The notes below the pieces were generated by a model. It saw only the letters and a program-made list of their open reading frames with translations, had not been told where the DNA came from and searched no databases. DNA of 64,000 bases from Labrys wisconsinensis (GTDB lineage: Bacteria; Pseudomonadota; Alphaproteobacteria; Rhizobiales; Labraceae), in assembly GCF_030814995.1 (NCBI RefSeq), contig NZ_JAUSVX010000015.1:62001-126000 (forward strand), written 5' to 3'. Made by a program: the position numbers and the translations under genes. How positions within the stretch are numbered: the stretch's first letter is position 1; each line of letters begins with the position of its first letter. This document shows positions 4,844 to 58,012 of the stretch, piece after piece.

Positions 4844-5497
4844 ATGGCTGGTCGGAGAGGCGAGGCAGTGGAGCCGGGGGGGCAGGCCGGCGAGGCGGCC
4901 GCGGCCCGGCGCATGCCGGCGCAGCAGCGCAGCCGCGAGCGGCTGGAGCGCATCCTGGCGGTCGCCTCCGGGTTGATCGCCGAACGGGGCAGCGACCTCC
5001 TGCGCATGAGCGAGGTGGCGGAGCTCGCCGGAATCTCGATCGGCTCGCTCTACCAGTACTTTCCGGACAAGGGCGCGATCATCCGCGCCCTGGCGGACCG
5101 CTACAGCGCCGAAAGCCGGCGCTGCATCGAGGAGGCGCTTGCCGGCGTGCGCGACCTCGACGGCCTGCTCGCGGCCTTCGAAGGCCTGGTCGACCAGTAC
5201 CACGCCATCATGCTGGCCGAGCCCGTGATGCGCGACATCTGGTCGGGCATGCAGGCGGACAAGCAGCTGATGGCGATCGAGCTTCGGGAGAGCCGGGCGA
5301 TGGGCGCCCTGCTGGCCGAGGTCATGGCCCGCGTCCATCCCGCCATTGCGCCGGACCGCATCGCCGCCACCGCCTTCCTGATCTGGCAGCTCGGCGAGGC
5401 CACGATGCGCCTCGCCGTCTCGCTCGACCGCGCCGAGGGCGACGCGCTGGTCGCCGCCTACAAGCGCATGACCCTGCGCGAATTGGCGCAGCCGTGA
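4844..5497 (+). CDS. TetR family transcriptional regulator
   Basis: 217 residues. The TetR DNA-binding domain occupies about residues 28-75, with the diagnostic recognition helix AGISIGSLYQYFPDKGAIIRAL. The rest is an all-helical ligand domain with an AefR/TetR_C look. I chose ATG 4844 because GGAGG (4829-4833) lies ten bases upstream; an in-frame ATG at 4802 falls inside the operator dyad and is unlikely. It probably represses itself and the divergent NmrA-type/DUF1772 genes. The inducer is unknown. Confidence 0.9.
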   Translation: MAGRRGEAVEPGGQAGEAAAARRMPAQQRSRERLERILAVASGLIAERGSDLLRMSEVAELAGISIGSLYQYFPDKGAIIRALADRYSAESRRCIEEALAGVRDLDGLLAAFEGLVDQYHAIMLAEPVMRDIWSGMQADKQLMAIELRESRAMGALLAEVMARVHPAIAPDRIAATAFLIWQLGEATMRLAVSLDRAEGDALVAAYKRMTLRELAQP

Positions 5498-5533
5498 GGG
5501 CCAGGCTCGGCGGCCCGTCTCCGACCTTGCCGA

Positions 5534-6646
5534 TCAGCGCAGCAAGCCGGCATCGACAGCCAGTTGGCCTGCCTTGGTGAGTTGACCGCAGCGCCAGACG
5601 CTGCTGGCCAGAATCGAGCTCGCACCGGGTGCGCTGTTCCAGGCGAAGTAGAGCAGCCCGGCAAGTCTGCCTTGGCGGGCGTAGGGGCGGAAATCTCCGA
5701 TGATCTCCTCGACGAGCCGCGCGCGCTGCGTATCGTCGACGGGACAGCCTGGGCTGTCGTTGTCGATGCCCCACTCCGTGACCCAGCACGGCTTTCCCCC
5801 GGCGCTTGCCCGGGGACGGCAATCGGCCAGATCGTATCGGGCGATACGCTCCCTTCTCAATGCGGCGGCGCTGTCATGCTTGGTATCGGGATAGATATGA
5901 ACGGCATAGGCATCGACGAGATCATCCAGGCCGTGCGCGCGCAAATAGCTCAGCGTCGTATGGATGCCGACGATGTCGCCCTTGGCCCAGCCGGGAAGCG
6001 GCCCGTCGTCCTGATCGTAAGTACCGAGCCCCGCCGTCATGATCGGCGTCTGGCGGTTGAGCGCCGAGTGATCGCGGATATCCTTCAGCACCGCCAGGAT
6101 CTTCAGATATTGGCGGAACCCTTGCGCAACGCGCCGTCCCTGCGGATCGCTTTCCAGATCGGCGGGGCCGAGCTGCCGGGCGCGGCCGGTGGGCCTGGCG
6201 AATTCGGGGTTGGTTCCCGAGAGATTGATCTCATTGCCGAGCTCGTAGCCCGCCAGAACGATTCCCTTGGCTTCCAGGCGGTCCATGATCGGCTGAAACG
6301 TCGCGCGGAACCGATCGGGATCGGCGGCGGAAAGCGGCGTTTTCCCGAAGGGGTCATAGCCGCCGAAATGGTAGATGAGCCATTCGATCCTGATGCCGTG
6401 CTTCCATGCCCGTTCGGCATAGTCGACGCCCTTGTCGTCGAGCGTGATGGAGGCCCGGATCACCGAAACGCCGGACGCGTGTATCGCATCCAGCATGGCG
6501 TCCTGCTCGGACGCGCCGAGGATGTAGGGATTGATGACGTTGACGCCGGCAACGACCGCGTCCCGGGCCTGCGCGGGCGAAGCCGACAGCAGGACCGCAC
6601 CCAGGATGACGCCGGCAACGGCGATGATCTTGTCCCCTGCCATCAT
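5534..6646 (-). CDS. Secreted glycoside hydrolase-like protein (clan GH-A fold)
   Basis: 370 residues with a signal peptide (residues 6-28, cleavage near PAQA). The sequence fits a TIM-barrel glycosidase: GVNVINPYI at the start, the acid/base motif ELGNEIN with Glu139, and the presumed nucleophile in CWVTEWGID (Glu291). The order NE then TEWG is that of clan GH-A (GH5, GH39 and similar), but I cannot name the family. Likely periplasmic or exported, acting on a glycan. Transcribed alone. Both catalytic glutamates are present, so it may well be active. Confidence 0.72.
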   Translation of the reverse strand: MMAGDKIIAVAGVILGAVLLSASPAQARDAVVAGVNVINPYILGASEQDAMLDAIHASGVSVIRASITLDDKGVDYAERAWKHGIRIEWLIYHFGGYDPFGKTPLSAADPDRFRATFQPIMDRLEAKGIVLAGYELGNEINLSGTNPEFARPTGRARQLGPADLESDPQGRRVAQGFRQYLKILAVLKDIRDHSALNRQTPIMTAGLGTYDQDDGPLPGWAKGDIVGIHTTLSYLRAHGLDDLVDAYAVHIYPDTKHDSAAALRRERIARYDLADCRPRASAGGKPCWVTEWGIDNDSPGCPVDDTQRARLVEEIIGDFRPYARQGRLAGLLYFAWNSAPGASSILASSVWRCGQLTKAGQLAVDAGLLR

Positions 6647-7706: not shown

Positions 7707-8761
7707 GCTGCGGCTCCGGCCCGGCGGATGCGGTGCGTGGTGAACAGCAGCGCCACCAGCATGGCGATGAGGGCGGTGCCCTGCAGCACGTCGGCCAGGA
7801 ACACCGGCACGCCGGTCGACCGCGACATCGCCTCGGCGCCGGTCATGACGATAGCGAAGAAGATCGCCGCCGGCACGACGCCGAGCGGGTTGAGCCGCGC
7901 CAGCATGGCGATGACGATGCCGCTGTAGCCGAATCCCGGCGACAGGTCGCTCATCACCTGGAAATGCACACCGCCGACCTCGCCGACGCCGGCGAGGCCC
8001 GCCAGCCCGCCCGAGATCAGCGCCGTGGCGACGAGCACCCGGCCGACCGCGATGCCGCCATAACGCGCGGCGGCCGGGTTTTCGCCAGTGACGCGGATGC
8101 GAAAGCCCAGCGTGGTCCGCGCCATCAGCACCCAGACGAGGCCCGCGGCGATGAAGGCGGCGGCGACGCCGAGATGCAGCCGCGTGCCGGTGATCAGGCG
8201 CGGCAGCGCCGCCGCATCCTCGATCGGCGGCGAGATGGGATAGCCGCTGAACGGGTCCTTCCACGGCCCCTCGATCAGCGCCATGACCGCGTAGAGCACG
8301 ACCGAGTTGAGCAGCAGCGAGGTGACGACGTCGTCGACCTTGAGCTTCACCCGCAGCAGCGCCGGCACCAGCGCCACCAGCCCGCCGGCCGCCGCGCCGG
8401 CCAGCGCCATGGCCAGCATGGCGAGCGGGCCGGGCATGGGAATGGCGCCAACGAAGGCGGCGGCGACGGCCCCGGCCATCAGCTGCCCCTCCGCGCCGAT
8501 GTTCCAGAACCGGGCACGGAAGGCGACGGCGACCGCAAGGCCGGTGAAGATCATCGGCGCCGCCTTGACCAGCGTCTCCGTGGCATTGAACTGCGACCCC
8601 AGCGCCCCGGCGAGCATCAGCCGATAGGCTTCGAGCGCGTTGGCGCCGGCGAGCGCGATCAGGCCGCTGCACAGTACCAGCGTCGCCGCCACCGCGGCGA
8701 GCGGCAGCGCGAGGCCCAGCCAGGGCGCCGCATCGCTGCGTGCCTCGAGCTTCCACCTCAT
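7703..8761 (-). CDS. BMP-type ABC transporter permease, first subunit
   Basis: 352-residue permease of the NupP/YufP type. The motif FRARFWNIGAEGQLMAGAVAA lies near residue 80, RVTGENPAAARYGGI near 215, and the hydrophobic pattern gives about ten helices. It pairs with the shorter permease downstream; four-base overlaps link ATPase, permease one and permease two. The ATG at 8761 overlaps the ATPase stop, so it was preferred over longer in-frame extensions. Confidence 0.92.
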   Translation of the reverse strand: MRWKLEARSDAAPWLGLALPLAAVAATLVLCSGLIALAGANALEAYRLMLAGALGSQFNATETLVKAAPMIFTGLAVAVAFRARFWNIGAEGQLMAGAVAAAFVGAIPMPGPLAMLAMALAGAAAGGLVALVPALLRVKLKVDDVVTSLLLNSVVLYAVMALIEGPWKDPFSGYPISPPIEDAAALPRLITGTRLHLGVAAAFIAAGLVWVLMARTTLGFRIRVTGENPAAARYGGIAVGRVLVATALISGGLAGLAGVGEVGGVHFQVMSDLSPGFGYSGIVIAMLARLNPLGVVPAAIFFAIVMTGAEAMSRSTGVPVFLADVLQGTALIAMLVALLFTTHRIRRAGAAA

Positions 8762-54753: not shown

Positions 54754-54872
54754 GGCGGGGTCACGGGAGGAAGGGCCGGTCCTGGCCGCCGGCTTGATAG
54801 ACCGGGCCGGCAGCCGGCACAACCCGCGGGTCCGGCGCGCCCGGTCCGCCGGGCCCGAGGCGGCCGATGGCC

Positions 54873-55457
54873 TCAGCGCCACAGCCGGCAGAGCACGTTC
54901 AGCCCGCAGCGCAGGTCGCCGAGACTGGCCGGGCGGTCGGCGATGATCGCGGCCTTGAGGGCGGCCAGCGCCGCGCGGCCGTCGGGAAGGTCGATCAGGG
55001 CGGTGTAGGCGTCGGCATAGTCGCGGCGGATGCGGGCGATCGCCTCGTCGGACTGGTCCTCCTCCTGGCGCCACGGCCCGCCGTCGGTCAGGATGGTCGA
55101 GGGGCTCTTGGGCGTTGCAAGGGGAATGCCCATCAGGCGGGCATAGCGGGCCACCACCGCGCCCCAGCGCTCGCCCGCCGCGAATTGCTGCGCGTTGATC
55201 TCGCCGGCGAGGCGCAGCCGGCCGAGGAAGCTGCCGGCGAGCTGGCTGCGCAGCTCCGCTTCCGACACGCCGAGGCGCCGCCGGTTTGCTTCGGCGAGCT
55301 GCATGATCTCGTCCTTGGTCTCGCGCTTGTAGCGGCCGGTGCCCGGCTCGCGCTCCTTCAGCTCCCAGGGCTGGCTCGGACGCGTCAGGGCACGCAGCTC
55401 GACGCGGCCGTGCCTGGTGTGCACGACGGCGACGACTCGCTCTCTTCGCTTCTTCAT
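54873..55457 (-). CDS. Hypothetical protein of the S24 island
   Basis: 194 residues, soluble, Arg-rich N-terminus (MKKRRERVVAVVHTRHGR) and acidic C-terminal half. Family not recognised. Start overlaps the stop of the preceding small gene by four bases. Composition and coupling to the other small genes suggest a phage-like accessory protein, perhaps DNA-associated. Confidence 0.62.
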   Translation of the reverse strand: MKKRRERVVAVVHTRHGRVELRALTRPSQPWELKEREPGTGRYKRETKDEIMQLAEANRRRLGVSEAELRSQLAGSFLGRLRLAGEINAQQFAAGERWGAVVARYARLMGIPLATPKSPSTILTDGGPWRQEEDQSDEAIARIRRDYADAYTALIDLPDGRAALAALKAAIIADRPASLGDLRCGLNVLCRLWR

Positions 55458-55636
55458 GGGCTGCTCCAAAGGCCGCTCGTGCTCCGTTCGATGCCCAGCG
55501 CGGCCCGGAAGCGCCGGCCGTCCTCGCCGGGTAGGCCCGGCCGGGCCTCGATCCCGACCGGCATCGCCGCGCCGTCCGGGATCGGGTTCGGCCTGTCCCT
55601 GCGCGGGCGGGCCTGGTTGACGTCCGGCATCGGCAT
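55454..55636 (-). CDS. Small coupled hypothetical protein
   Basis: 60 residues from ATG 55636 (GGAG eight bases upstream). Arg/Pro-rich, no domain. Supported mainly by its four-base overlap with the 194-residue gene and its position between two island genes; it could be a chance frame. Confidence 0.42.
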   Translation of the reverse strand: MPMPDVNQARPRRDRPNPIPDGAAMPVGIEARPGLPGEDGRRFRAALGIERSTSGLWSSP

Positions 55637-55659
55637 CCCTTCTGCTCCGGCCAGGCGGA

Positions 55660-56028
55660 TCAGAGGTCGGCGCACAGGGCGGCGGGCGAGCCGAACAGGC
55701 CCGGCCGGAGCGGCTCGGCATGGCGCGGCGGCCTCGGCAGCGCGGCGATGGCATAGGTCGTCCAGCGCCCGCCACTCGCCTCGAGGTCTTCGAGATGGGC
55801 ACGGCAGGCGGCTTCGAGCACGGGGCTGCCGTCCTCCTCCTCGGCGTCCCAGGCCGCCTCGAAGCGCCGGCGCATCCCGGCCGTTGCCGCCTTGTTGCGG
55901 CGTTTGAGGCAGGAGGCGACGGCGCTCTTGGTGCGTCCCATGGCCGCGCCGATCTCGGCGCGGGTCAGGCCACGGCTGCGCAGCTCGCCCATCCTGTCGA
56001 TCTCTTCGGTGGTCCATTGCGCGGGCAT
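55660..56028 (-). CDS. Myb/SANT-like DNA-binding protein
   Basis: 122 residues from ATG 56028. MPAQWTTEEIDRMGELRSRGLTRAEIGAAMGRTKSAVASCLKR is a Myb/GcrA-like helix-turn-helix: Trp-led helix one, then the recognition helix TKSAVASCLKRR. The C-terminus is acidic then proline-rich. Probably binds DNA; a regulator in the island. The ATG overlaps the previous small gene by one base. Confidence 0.72.
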   Translation of the reverse strand: MPAQWTTEEIDRMGELRSRGLTRAEIGAAMGRTKSAVASCLKRRNKAATAGMRRRFEAAWDAEEEDGSPVLEAACRAHLEDLEASGGRWTTYAIAALPRPPRHAEPLRPGLFGSPAALCADL

Positions 56029-56168
56029 CACAGGGTCTCCACGATGGGGGCCTGGCGCGCGGCGCCGGCCCGGAGCTGAAAGGACCGGCGCGGGCGGGCG
56101 CCGGCATGACGGGCGGGAGGAGTGCGGTCGTCGCTGGAGGGATGGTTGCTGGAGGGATGGTCGCTCAT
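56028..56168 (-). CDS. Small leader protein of the island operon
   Basis: 46 residues from ATG 56168 (GGAG eight bases upstream). Ser/Pro-rich, no domain. Its stop (TGA 56028-56030) overlaps the Myb-like start by one base. A longer start at 56237 is inside the operator zone and unlikely. Confidence 0.45.
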   Translation of the reverse strand: MSDHPSSNHPSSDDRTPPARHAGARPRRSFQLRAGAARQAPIVETL

Positions 56169-56240
56169 GGCGAGGGCTCCGTCGGGTTGGGTGATGCGAA
56201 CGGGATGTCCATCCGCACGTTTTTGGTTTGTTCTCATATA

Positions 56241-56255
56241 TTCTGATTTTTAGAA
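56241..56255. promoter_or_regulatory. Palindromic operator (TTCTGAT-type) upstream of the repressor and small-gene operon
   Basis: TTCTGATTTTTAGAA, a 15-base imperfect palindrome. On the minus strand it follows a -35 hexamer TTGACG (56261-56266) by five bases, as does the operator at 57444-57458 by five bases from TTGACA. It matches that site at 13 of 15 positions. Confidence 0.68.
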
Positions 56256-56301
56256 GTAGACGTCAAGGGGGTGGTCTGATATTCGTGATGCAGATTTCGC
56301 T

Positions 56302-57009
56302 ATGCGGAAAACCATCATGGACACCGACGCGATCGCCTGGATCCGGGAAGGGCTGGCCAGGCCGGGAAAGAGCCAGACCGGCCTGGCGCGGGCGCTGGGC
56401 CGTGCCCCCTCGGCGGTCAGCGCCCTGCTGAAGGGGACGCGGCAGTTGAAGGCCAGGGAGATTCCGCTCGTCGCCGCCTATCTCGAGGTCTCCCCGCCCG
56501 GGGCCATGGCGGCCGGCGGGCCGGGTGTGCCGGCCGGTTTTGCCGAGCCGGCGGGGCCGCCGCCGCGTCCACCGGGCGCCTTCCGCATCGAGCCGTTCGA
56601 GGCGCCGCGCCTCAGCGAGCGGCTGACGCCCGTCTACGGCCTGGCGGTCGGCGGGGACGACGGCCGGTTCTATTTCAACGGCGAGACCGTCGGCTGGGTG
56701 AAGACGCCGGAATCGCTGCTCGGCGTGCGCAATGCCTATGCCCTCTATGTGGCCGAGGAGAGCATGGTGCCGCGTTTCAAGCCGGGCGAGCAGGTCTGGG
56801 TCAATCCGCATAGGGCACCGATCCGCGGCGACGACGTCATCGTGCAGCTCCATCCCGAGCACGAGCACGACAATCCCGAGGGCTACATCAAGGAGTTCCG
56901 CGGCTGGACGCCGCGGGCGCTGCTGCTCTGGCAGTGGAATCCGGCCGGGGAGATCGAGATCGACCGACAGCTGGTCCGGAGCATCCACGTCATCGTCGGG
57001 CGGGGATAG
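56302..57009 (+). CDS. S24 family CI-like repressor
   Basis: 235 residues. N-terminal helix-turn-helix (1-52): SQTGLARALGRAPSAVSALLKGTRQLKARE. The C-terminal LexA/CI-like peptidase domain has the Ser in VAEESMVPRFKPGEQV (Ser154) and Lys in GYIKEFRG (Lys197). Like phage CI, it would self-cleave on DNA damage via RecA. Alternative start ATG 56317. No phage structural genes adjoin, so it is a remnant or host-adopted regulator. It likely binds the TTCTGATTATCAGAA palindromes. Confidence 0.85.
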   Translation: MRKTIMDTDAIAWIREGLARPGKSQTGLARALGRAPSAVSALLKGTRQLKAREIPLVAAYLEVSPPGAMAAGGPGVPAGFAEPAGPPPRPPGAFRIEPFEAPRLSERLTPVYGLAVGGDDGRFYFNGETVGWVKTPESLLGVRNAYALYVAEESMVPRFKPGEQVWVNPHRAPIRGDDVIVQLHPEHEHDNPEGYIKEFRGWTPRALLLWQWNPAGEIEIDRQLVRSIHVIVGRG

Positions 57010-57051
57010 CCGCCACGTCCGGCCTCGCCCGGCGCGTCCCCGCGCCGGCCG

Positions 57052-57294
57052 TCAGTCGCCGTCGAGCCGTGCCGCCCATTCCAGCGCCTCCGCCGGCAGG
57101 TCGCCGACGCGGGCCAGGATCACCGTGTCACCGGCGCCTCCGACGCTGGGGTCGCAGGTGCGGGCGAGCGCCACCGCGCCGGCCGCGGCACCGAGCCGTT
57201 CGGCCAGATGCACCGCCTCGGCGGCGCTGCGCGCCGCGCGCGCCTCGCCCGGCACGATCCGGCCGCGCCTGGCCGGCGCGAAGGTCTGCACCAT
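57052..57294 (-). CDS. Small conserved protein behind an SOS box
   Basis: 80 residues from ATG 57294. MVQTFAPARRGRIVPGEARAARSAAEAVHLAERLGAAAGAVALARTCDPSVGGAGDTVILARVGDLPAE. The VQ-F-x-x-x-x-RGR-x-VPGE opening and the D-x-x-x-x-ILA-x-x-G-x-x-P ending occur in small proteins of rhizobial prophages and SOS-linked regions. A LexA-type box lies 44-58 bases upstream. Confidence 0.66.
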   Translation of the reverse strand: MVQTFAPARRGRIVPGEARAARSAAEAVHLAERLGAAAGAVALARTCDPSVGGAGDTVILARVGDLPAEALEWAARLDGD

Positions 57295-57337
57295 GAAATA
57301 CGTTACCTGCGGCACGGCTCCCCTCCAGCGCTGCCTT

Positions 57338-57352
57338 GAACAAAAGAAGAAC
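57338..57352. promoter_or_regulatory. LexA (SOS) box, alphaproteobacterial type
   Basis: GAAC-AAAAGAA-GAAC: two direct GAAC repeats with seven bases between, i.e. GTTC-N7-GTTC on the minus strand. This is the known LexA recognition sequence of Alphaproteobacteria. It sits upstream of the 80-residue gene at 57294. Confidence 0.72.
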
Positions 57353-57432
57353 ATGGGCGCCGGGGAGTCAAGCCCGATTCGGGGAAGCCGGCGAATTCCG
57401 CCGGTCCATTGCGGAAATCGCAAGGGTGGCGT

Positions 57433-57459
57433 TTGACAGGTCTTTCTGATTATCAGAAA
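57433..57459 (+). promoter_or_regulatory. Promoter with perfect palindromic operator
   Basis: A consensus -35 TTGACA (57433-57438) is followed after five bases by TTCTGATTATCAGAA (57444-57458), part of a 17-base perfect palindrome. The operator fills the -35/-10 spacer, so bound repressor would block RNA polymerase. Same layout as at 56241-56266. The 115-residue gene starts 30 bases later. Confidence 0.72.
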
Positions 57460-57488
57460 AACAATCCGCACAACAGCGGAGCTGCCGG

Positions 57489-57836
57489 ATGCGCTTCACG
57501 CCCGACCGCGATCTTCTGGGCCTCAACGAGCTGCGGATCGCCCATGCCACGGTCCCGCGCGGCGGCGTCGACGACCCCGGCCTGCTGCAGGACATGCGCG
57601 ACGCCTTCGCCCGCGACCTCGACCGCTGCCTGCAATGGCTCTATCGCCGCGGTCGCGATTTCCGCTTCTGCGCCGATGCGCAGATCGACCCGCGCGAGCT
57701 GGTCGAGGCCCTGCTGCAGGACCTGGAGGAGCATTGCCTGGCGCCGATCGACCGGCGCATCGAGGCGCTGGGCGAGGCGCGGCCGCCGGCGGCCCTCTAT
57801 CGCCGCCGCCCGGGCCCGCACGGCGCCGCGCCCTGA
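57489..57836 (+). CDS. Hypothetical protein controlled by the S24-type operator
   Basis: 115 residues, soluble, mostly helical: LNELRIAHATVPRGGVDDPGLLQDMRDAFARDLDRCLQWLYRRGRDFRFCADAQIDPRELVEALLQDLEEHCLAPIDRRIEAL. Two cysteine-containing helices; C-terminus basic. GCGGAG eight bases before ATG 57489. Family unknown. Expected to be induced when the S24 repressor is cleaved. Confidence 0.68.
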   Translation: MRFTPDRDLLGLNELRIAHATVPRGGVDDPGLLQDMRDAFARDLDRCLQWLYRRGRDFRFCADAQIDPRELVEALLQDLEEHCLAPIDRRIEALGEARPPAALYRRRPGPHGAAP

Positions 57837-58012
57837 GCCGGGACGCCATGCCGTCACGCAGTTGCGCCCGGCCCCGGCTTGCGCTACCGCCGTGTCGGCC
57901 CGGGCCTCGCCGGGAGGTCCGGCCGTTGCGCGCGGTCCCGACGGGTCCCAGGCTGCGGCGGGGCACCGTCGGCCGGCGCGCGCACGCCAACATCCACGGC
58001 AGAGACAGCACC

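Follow-up and report, generated by a model that had tools for sequence, protein, structure and literature searches.

Two candidate operators flanking a phage 16-3 C-type repressor gene in Labrys wisconsinensis, with a LexA-boxed gene between them

In phage lambda a single repressor, CI, serves two operator regions that control two diverging early transcripts, with three operators in each region and cleavage of the repressor at Ala-Gly. The same general plan is annotated in the record of Rhizobium phage 16-3 (NC_011103), where OL1, OL2 and the promoter PL lie just downstream of the repressor gene c, and OR1, OR2 and the promoter PR just upstream; both promoters point outward, and OL2 falls between the -35 and -10 elements. 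A different arrangement appears in a report on the Gifsy prophages (PMC3121763), whose LexA-controlled antirepressors act on uncleaved repressors and are encoded outside the immunity region. Here we analyse a stretch of 64,000 nucleotides from Labrys wisconsinensis (the window), in which two operator-like sites, A and B, flank a gene for an S24 repressor, one on each side. With a probability of roughly 0.86, A and B are the OR and OL of this one phage repressor, in what looks like a decayed immunity region that also contains a LexA-boxed gene of a family here called VTYF. The system would thus be of a known kind, that of the 16-3 and lambda OL-OR pairs, the new element being the LexA-boxed, inward-facing gene.

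The principal features are as follows; L077 and L078 are the two viral contigs with the most similar repressor heads, and L062 is a second copy of the L077 contig.

56238..56243, minus strand: predicted PR -10, GAATAT, with a 17-base spacer; GAATAT also in L077, GAACAT in L078
56241..56255, minus strand: site A, candidate operator in the PR spacer (outer OR), from its aligned position and the word kept in L077 and L078
56261..56266, minus strand: predicted outward PR -35, TTGACG, invariant in the window, L077 and L078
56317..57009, plus strand: repressor with a lambda-type helix-turn-helix (HTH) and an S24 (LexA/CI-like) domain, phage 16-3 C family
57052..57315, minus strand: VTYF-family gene, 87 residues, inward-facing and convergent with the repressor; overlooked by the earlier, sequence-only reading of this DNA
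57338..57352, minus strand: LexA box GTTC-N7-GTTC, 22 bases before the VTYF start codon; the sole exact copy in the window
57366..57371, minus strand: candidate VTYF promoter -35, TTGACT; the LexA box begins 19 bases on
57433..57438, plus strand: predicted outward PL -35, TTGACA
57444..57458, plus strand: site B, a perfect palindrome in the PL spacer (OL2 position), aligning with the second OL site of L062 and L078
57456..57461, plus strand: PL -10 position, poor (GAAAAA); AATAGT in L062 and AATACT in L078

Sites A and B beside the repressor gene

Site A lies within the minus-strand element TTGACG-TCTAC-TTCTAAAAATCAGAA (56266-56241) and site B within the plus-strand element TTGACA-GGTCT-TTCTGATTATCAGAA (57433-57458). 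Both have the general form of an outward -35 TTGACR, five bases and then a palindrome resembling TTCTGA-N3-TCAGAA. The sequence-only reading had claimed identical spacing between -35 and operator, and five bases are indeed found at both; its claim of 13 matching operator bases out of 15 holds only with A read on the other strand, the figure being 12 of 15 in the orientation that bears the -35 (two mismatches on the plus strand, three on the minus).

The sites are real; that they arose by chance among the AT-rich gaps of a GC-rich genome is a reading to which we would allow about as much room as to a rare accident. Within three mismatches the window yields four operator matches (the two sites, each on both strands) compared with 0.15 expected, a number reached by none of 100 shuffles of the window. 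Elsewhere in the 8.93 Mb genome, site B is matched to within two mismatches at just two places, neither preceded by TTGAC; since these lack a -35, the idea of a regulon extending beyond A and B was dropped.

Conservation beside related repressors also speaks against chance. In a viral collection of 2.9 million contigs (the size given in the tool description), the pattern TTGAC-N6-TTCTGA-N3-TCAGAA was found in eight contigs. The DNA-binding head (HTH) was searched for independently, by means of an alignment; this returned nine contigs, and the two best heads among them, at 74% and 73% identity, with recognition helices GRAPSAVT and GRAPSAIT compared with GRAPSAVS in the window, were both among the eight. 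On the side of chance, the list was made after looking, and the six further pattern contigs could themselves be accidental; against it stand the shuffles, the scarcity of matches genome-wide, the shared-word test described below, the coincidence of the two viral scans and the preservation of the sites in L077 and L078. Upstream of the repressor both these contigs carry two operator words at a distance of 58 bp: the outer one is exact and comes with TTGACG and a -10 of GAATAT or GAACAT, and the inner one has two core mismatches in one contig and one in the other; downstream, at the OL end, two words 33-34 bp apart, with one to three core mismatches, straddle an outward TTGAC. The absence of the site from relatives, which the sequence-only reading had named as grounds for abandoning its proposal, is therefore not what we find, with one exception taken up later.

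The operator word also follows the head of the repressor. In L068 a 148-residue protein with a head 60% identical to that of the window has the helix DPGSVS in place of APSAVS, and sites of the TTGTGA-N3-TCACAA type occur at both ends: the word has changed together with the recognition helix. This bears on the suggestion that some other regulator of the island, for instance a Cro-like protein or the GcrA-like protein of 123 residues encoded beyond site A, occupies the palindromes in place of the S24 protein. Its attractions are the HTH-like start of the 123-residue protein and the precedent of lambda, where CI and Cro share operators. It nonetheless appears decidedly improbable, given that the word tracks the repressor HTH, accompanying the two closest heads and altering with the helix in L068, and that a homologue of the 123-residue protein was not found in the stretches of L077 and L078 examined. 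At greater distances the word itself was not recovered: among relatives with 51-52% HTH identity, L040 and L041 have no TTCTGA site within two core mismatches, and two such sites in L044/L069 (one place under two labels) lack TTGAC. When viral contigs were searched for close relatives of the complete repressor, three stretches matched a pattern, and none of them was confirmed.

A more general measure came from homologous-repressor loci irrespective of their operator word. For each, the 300 bp lying 610-910 bp before the repressor end were compared with the 1 kb after it, and a shared word was called significant where no more than two of 150 dinucleotide shuffles, which keep the base composition of each locus, reached it. 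This was so in 16 of 36 loci (L042 and L043, both among the 16, are from one genome), and the word of the window was reached by one shuffle of the 150. The shared words differ between loci. Outward TTGAC was present at both ends in seven of the 16, the window included, compared with none in the inward control and two of the 20 other loci. In an earlier swap test based on pooled base composition, a locus's own pair came first in 12 of 36 cases and the window came no higher than 9th of 36, GC-rich coding sequence having prevailed. Both tests left out L016 (the same as L042) and L018, L019 and L021 (near copies of L017).

The assignment of A to OR/PR and of B to OL/PL, in the layout of 16-3, is favoured because the repressor belongs to the 16-3 C family, because that layout is annotated in 16-3 and because the word occurs at both ends beside the closest heads. 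The window repressor and the C protein share 52% identity over residues 106-235 (E 6e-39), the HTH lying outside the matched part. What is shared with 16-3 is a homologous C-terminal domain, a repressor gene flanked by outward PL and PR, and an operator placed within the spacer behind a TTGAC -35. The differences are another HTH and operator word, a single matching operator at each end, and the content of the interval. In 16-3, PL comes directly after c without a separate gene in between (the open reading frame p068 is annotated within c, on the opposite strand), and the 8 kb examined contain no exact LexA box. The use of A and B as shared operators of one repressor is strongly supported by these comparisons. 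So is the proposal, made when the sites were first noticed, that a single repressor switches two opposite transcripts, an arrangement annotated in the 16-3 record and conserved in two viral contigs. What did not survive of that proposal is the free-standing small SOS regulon of unknown genes, the region resembling instead the immunity region of a 16-3- or lambda-like prophage.

In the scheme that we favour, the S24 repressor would bind the palindromes in the -35/-10 spacers of PR (leftward, at A) and PL (rightward, at B) and so silence the early transcription that runs outward from each, in the manner of C in 16-3 and CI in lambda; that both promoters are held off from within their spacers is well supported, on homology and conservation. 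The apparent set of unrelated genes would then become readable as a prophage switch, and a rule for finding operators in this repressor family suggests itself: compare the DNA on the two sides of the gene, where TTGAC and a private palindrome often recur. A private word for each repressor could explain why, according to a 2025 survey (PMC12429752), phiLM21-like prophages lack the operator sequences known from 16-3 and lambda.

The LexA box and the inward-facing gene

The LexA box of Alphaproteobacteria is described as the direct repeat GTTC-N7-GTTC in two papers (PMC8565304, PMC3323433), and the same kind of box precedes the genome's own lexA, 85 bp before the matched start. The copy at 57338-57352 stands before the VTYF gene. 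The product of that gene has a predicted beta-beta-alpha-beta-beta-alpha fold (mean predicted local distance difference test score, pLDDT, 86), for which comparison with the PDB gave 414 matches at E<=10 and none at E<=0.001; it had no match in the phage collection. Homologues nevertheless lie beside OL in L062, where the downstream operator pair is about 330 bp beyond the gene, and beside the repressor in L006.

Boxes in this position are common. An exact LexA box occurs within 1 kb downstream of the repressor in 14 of 49 loci, compared with a mean of 1.39 and a maximum of 7 in 200 shuffles; the 49 take in 13 of the 19 loci from the HTH scan, include both L062 and L077 and both L044 and L069, and omit L023, which was too short. 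In the ten loci where both elements could be placed the box is 36-162 bp inside the downstream word (the word being non-significant in L006 and L035). Most of 20 hand-picked boxes precede inward-facing genes, either of the VTYF kind or of a zinc-ribbon-like kind with Cys pairs, the variant Cys-pair kind in L072, L075 and L079-L084 being grouped without shown homology. A LexA-boxed inward gene in the immunity region is thus a recurrent arrangement in related loci. Ten small proteins of both kinds gave no match at the Pfam cut-off and none at E<=0.01 in PHROGs, and the six tested in NCBIfam were unmatched. A promoter of the VTYF type is not general, TTGAC lying within 30 bases before the box in only six of 26 boxes. 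In L078 a LexA box (8219-8233) lies about 80 bp inside OL; no inward open reading frame of at least 45 residues starts within 250 bp of it, and one of 153 residues begins about 315 bp away.

Of 397 genomes of the order surveyed at E<=1e-5, 93 had VTYF and 13 the zinc-ribbon-like kind. Among the loci fetched, 13 of 30 VTYF genes (shuffle mean 0.19, maximum 3) and 13 of 17 zinc-ribbon-like genes (mean 0.13, maximum 2) had a box no more than 200 bp upstream. These counts include alignment seeds and near copies; once those are removed, the box is found in 9 of 26 VTYF genes and 3 of 7 zinc-ribbon-like genes, the count being 4 of 6 with a repressor near. A convergent S24 repressor within 1.5 kb accompanied six of the 30 and 14 of the 17, and the box was then found in five of the six and 13 of the 14. 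Altogether 18 of 26 boxed genes have such a repressor, the remaining eight being boxed VTYF genes. Excluded from alignment A8 were L091 (the window itself), L094, L106 and L108 (internal stops), and L110 and L116 (similar to others).

Several observations weigh against the interpretation given here. The window has a single matching operator at each end, its two closest relatives having two, and the -10 at PL is poor. No significant shared word within 1 kb was seen in 20 of the 36 homologous loci, among them 16-3 itself. Near the repressor of L067 (Microvirga massiliensis), whose HTH is 69% identical and has the helix GRSPSAVT, no such site is present; this is the exception mentioned above. Finally, 17 of the 30 fetched VTYF genes lack the box, and in L102 and L104 VTYF occurs with neither box nor S24 repressor, between genes read as GGDEF-type and purE-like. 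VTYF genes of this last sort weaken a purely antirepressor role and are perhaps a host-borne branch of the family. In L067, whose repressor (4998-5660) has nearly the same recognition helix, a LexA-boxed zinc-ribbon-like gene is still present downstream.

Repressor cleavage and possible routes to induction

The SOS-responsive switch of the sequence-only reading would correspond to a lambda CI-like event, in which RecA-triggered self-cleavage of the S24 repressor frees both promoters. Self-cleaving repressors have Ala-Gly or Cys-Gly at the cleavage site, Ala-Gly in the cases of lambda CI and LexA. The window repressor retains the Ser-Lys catalytic pair, Ser154 and Lys197 (numbered from 56302) being invariant in all ten aligned sequences, and its model matches fragments of a hyper-cleavable lambda repressor and of LexA, which is consistent with cleavage. 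At the expected cleavage position, however, it has Gly117-Gly118 on the same numbering, a difference from lambda, and Gly-Gly is present there in all ten aligned sequences. In a wider alignment of 47 homologues (the 36 loci and 11 more) the position is Gly-Gly in 27, Ala-Gly in eight and otherwise in 12. The Gly-Gly, together with a LexA box within the same module, leads us to regard self-cleavage as a minority possibility, to be given about one chance in several, and SOS control through the S24 protein itself as unproven. The direct SOS input seems better placed at the LexA box before the inward gene.

In that case DNA damage would release LexA and turn on the VTYF gene, whose product, we guess, would lift repression. 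A direct rise of VTYF on DNA damage is probable from the box; binding, repression, LexA control and the function of VTYF are all inferred from sequence, conservation, co-occurrence and layout. VTYF and the zinc-ribbon-like proteins may be LexA-controlled antirepressors. As with the Gifsy antirepressors, a small phage gene is preceded by a LexA box, which here occupies 57338-57352; the gene in the window differs in lying inside the immunity region, between repressor and PL, and the likeness is one of arrangement. The antirepressor idea also recalls tum of coliphage 186. Among the literature matches listed, from a search mostly outside subscription papers, no paper deals with a LexA-boxed gene inside a 16-3-type immunity region.

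A broader proposal is that many 16-3-type temperate phages of Rhizobiales sense SOS through an exchangeable, LexA-controlled small gene, drawn from at least two unrelated families (VTYF and the zinc-ribbon-like kind) and placed just inside OL, facing the repressor gene; its product would act as an antirepressor, or relieve repression in some other way, instead of or beside self-cleavage. We put this forward tentatively, as clearly less likely to hold than to fail, its odds having been lowered because boxes also lie beside Ala-Gly repressors. A LexA box is found within 1 kb downstream of 11 of the 27 Gly-Gly repressors and three of the eight Ala-Gly repressors, with the remaining five Ala-Gly loci having theirs at 1.26-1.88 kb. 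Boxes therefore accompany both classes alike, and the notion that a LexA-boxed gene simply replaces a lost cleavage is weakened; by the same token the box on its own is no argument against cleavage. Two small-protein families that match no family library at the cut-off stand behind LexA boxes beside repressors, making this route of phage induction directly testable.

In the Ala-Gly loci L072, L080, L081, L083 and L084 a Cys-pair gene with a LexA box is situated 1.3-1.9 kb downstream of the repressor. A second frame comes after the Cys-pair gene (of the EVLEFIIVPPFEQRE type in L081 and L084), and VTYF in L092 is likewise followed by a similar frame, which suggests a LexA-controlled two-gene cassette.

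Layout and apparent decay of the island

From left to right the island consists of a phrog_15385 gene, the 123-residue gene, a short open reading frame, site A, the repressor, the VTYF gene, site B and a gene of 115 residues. The features additional to those above are:

54873..55457, minus strand: phage gene of phrog_15385 (E 6.4e-13)
55660..56028, minus strand: putative early gene, 123 residues, with a GcrA-like/D5-like N-terminal HTH (GcrA 0.0014, below cut-off; phrog_323 1.4e-7)
56028..56168, minus strand: first open reading frame after PR, 46 residues if the start is 56168
56295..56311, no strand assigned: diverged inner OR position, minus-strand TTTTCCGCATAGCGAAA, where L077 and L078 have a second TTCTGA-type site
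57408..57422, no strand assigned: diverged OL1 position, TTGCGGAAATCGCAA, from alignment with relatives
57489..57836, plus strand: first gene after PL, 115 residues, nearly an orphan

Homologues of the phrog_15385 gene in Rhizobium phages RHph_Y25 and RHph_I3_18 are on the strand diverging from the C repressor, about 6-8 kb off. The predicted PR promoter and candidate operator stand before the small-gene operon, as had been suggested, and its frame is less likely to open at 56237: with a -10 at 56243-56238 the predicted transcription start is near 56230, so the ATG at 56237 is upstream of it and 56168 is more likely the first usable start. The element with site B does precede the 115-residue gene, also as described earlier. 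At E<=0.001 that gene has matches in two other genomes out of 297 of the order and two others out of 385 of the class, the best at 2.4e-5 and with internal stops, and none in the phage collection.

The span 54.8-58.0 kb holds immunity and early-type genes between genes read as chloride-channel-like and ugd-like, and no phage structural or integration gene was recognised beside the island in the list of open reading frames from 50 to 64 kb. Overall the island, at about 54870-57840, has the look of a decayed prophage immunity region with most of the phage lost: there is one matching operator per end with diverged partners, the PL -10 is poor and no other phage genes are recognised alongside. An attempt to define an empty site within the genus did not succeed: ugd is present in all five genomes, the other four had no blastn match to the window DNA in the 1.5 kb upstream, and the chloride-channel gene matched only in its own genome among those compared. 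PADLOC gave a single weak HTH match (E 0.0011).

Where 16-3-type regions have two operators each, the window thus has one matching site per end, and diverged palindromes occupy the partner positions. GCGGAAA occurs in both of the latter, at 57408-57422 and at 56295-56311, which may reflect either decay or drift towards a new word that the two share.
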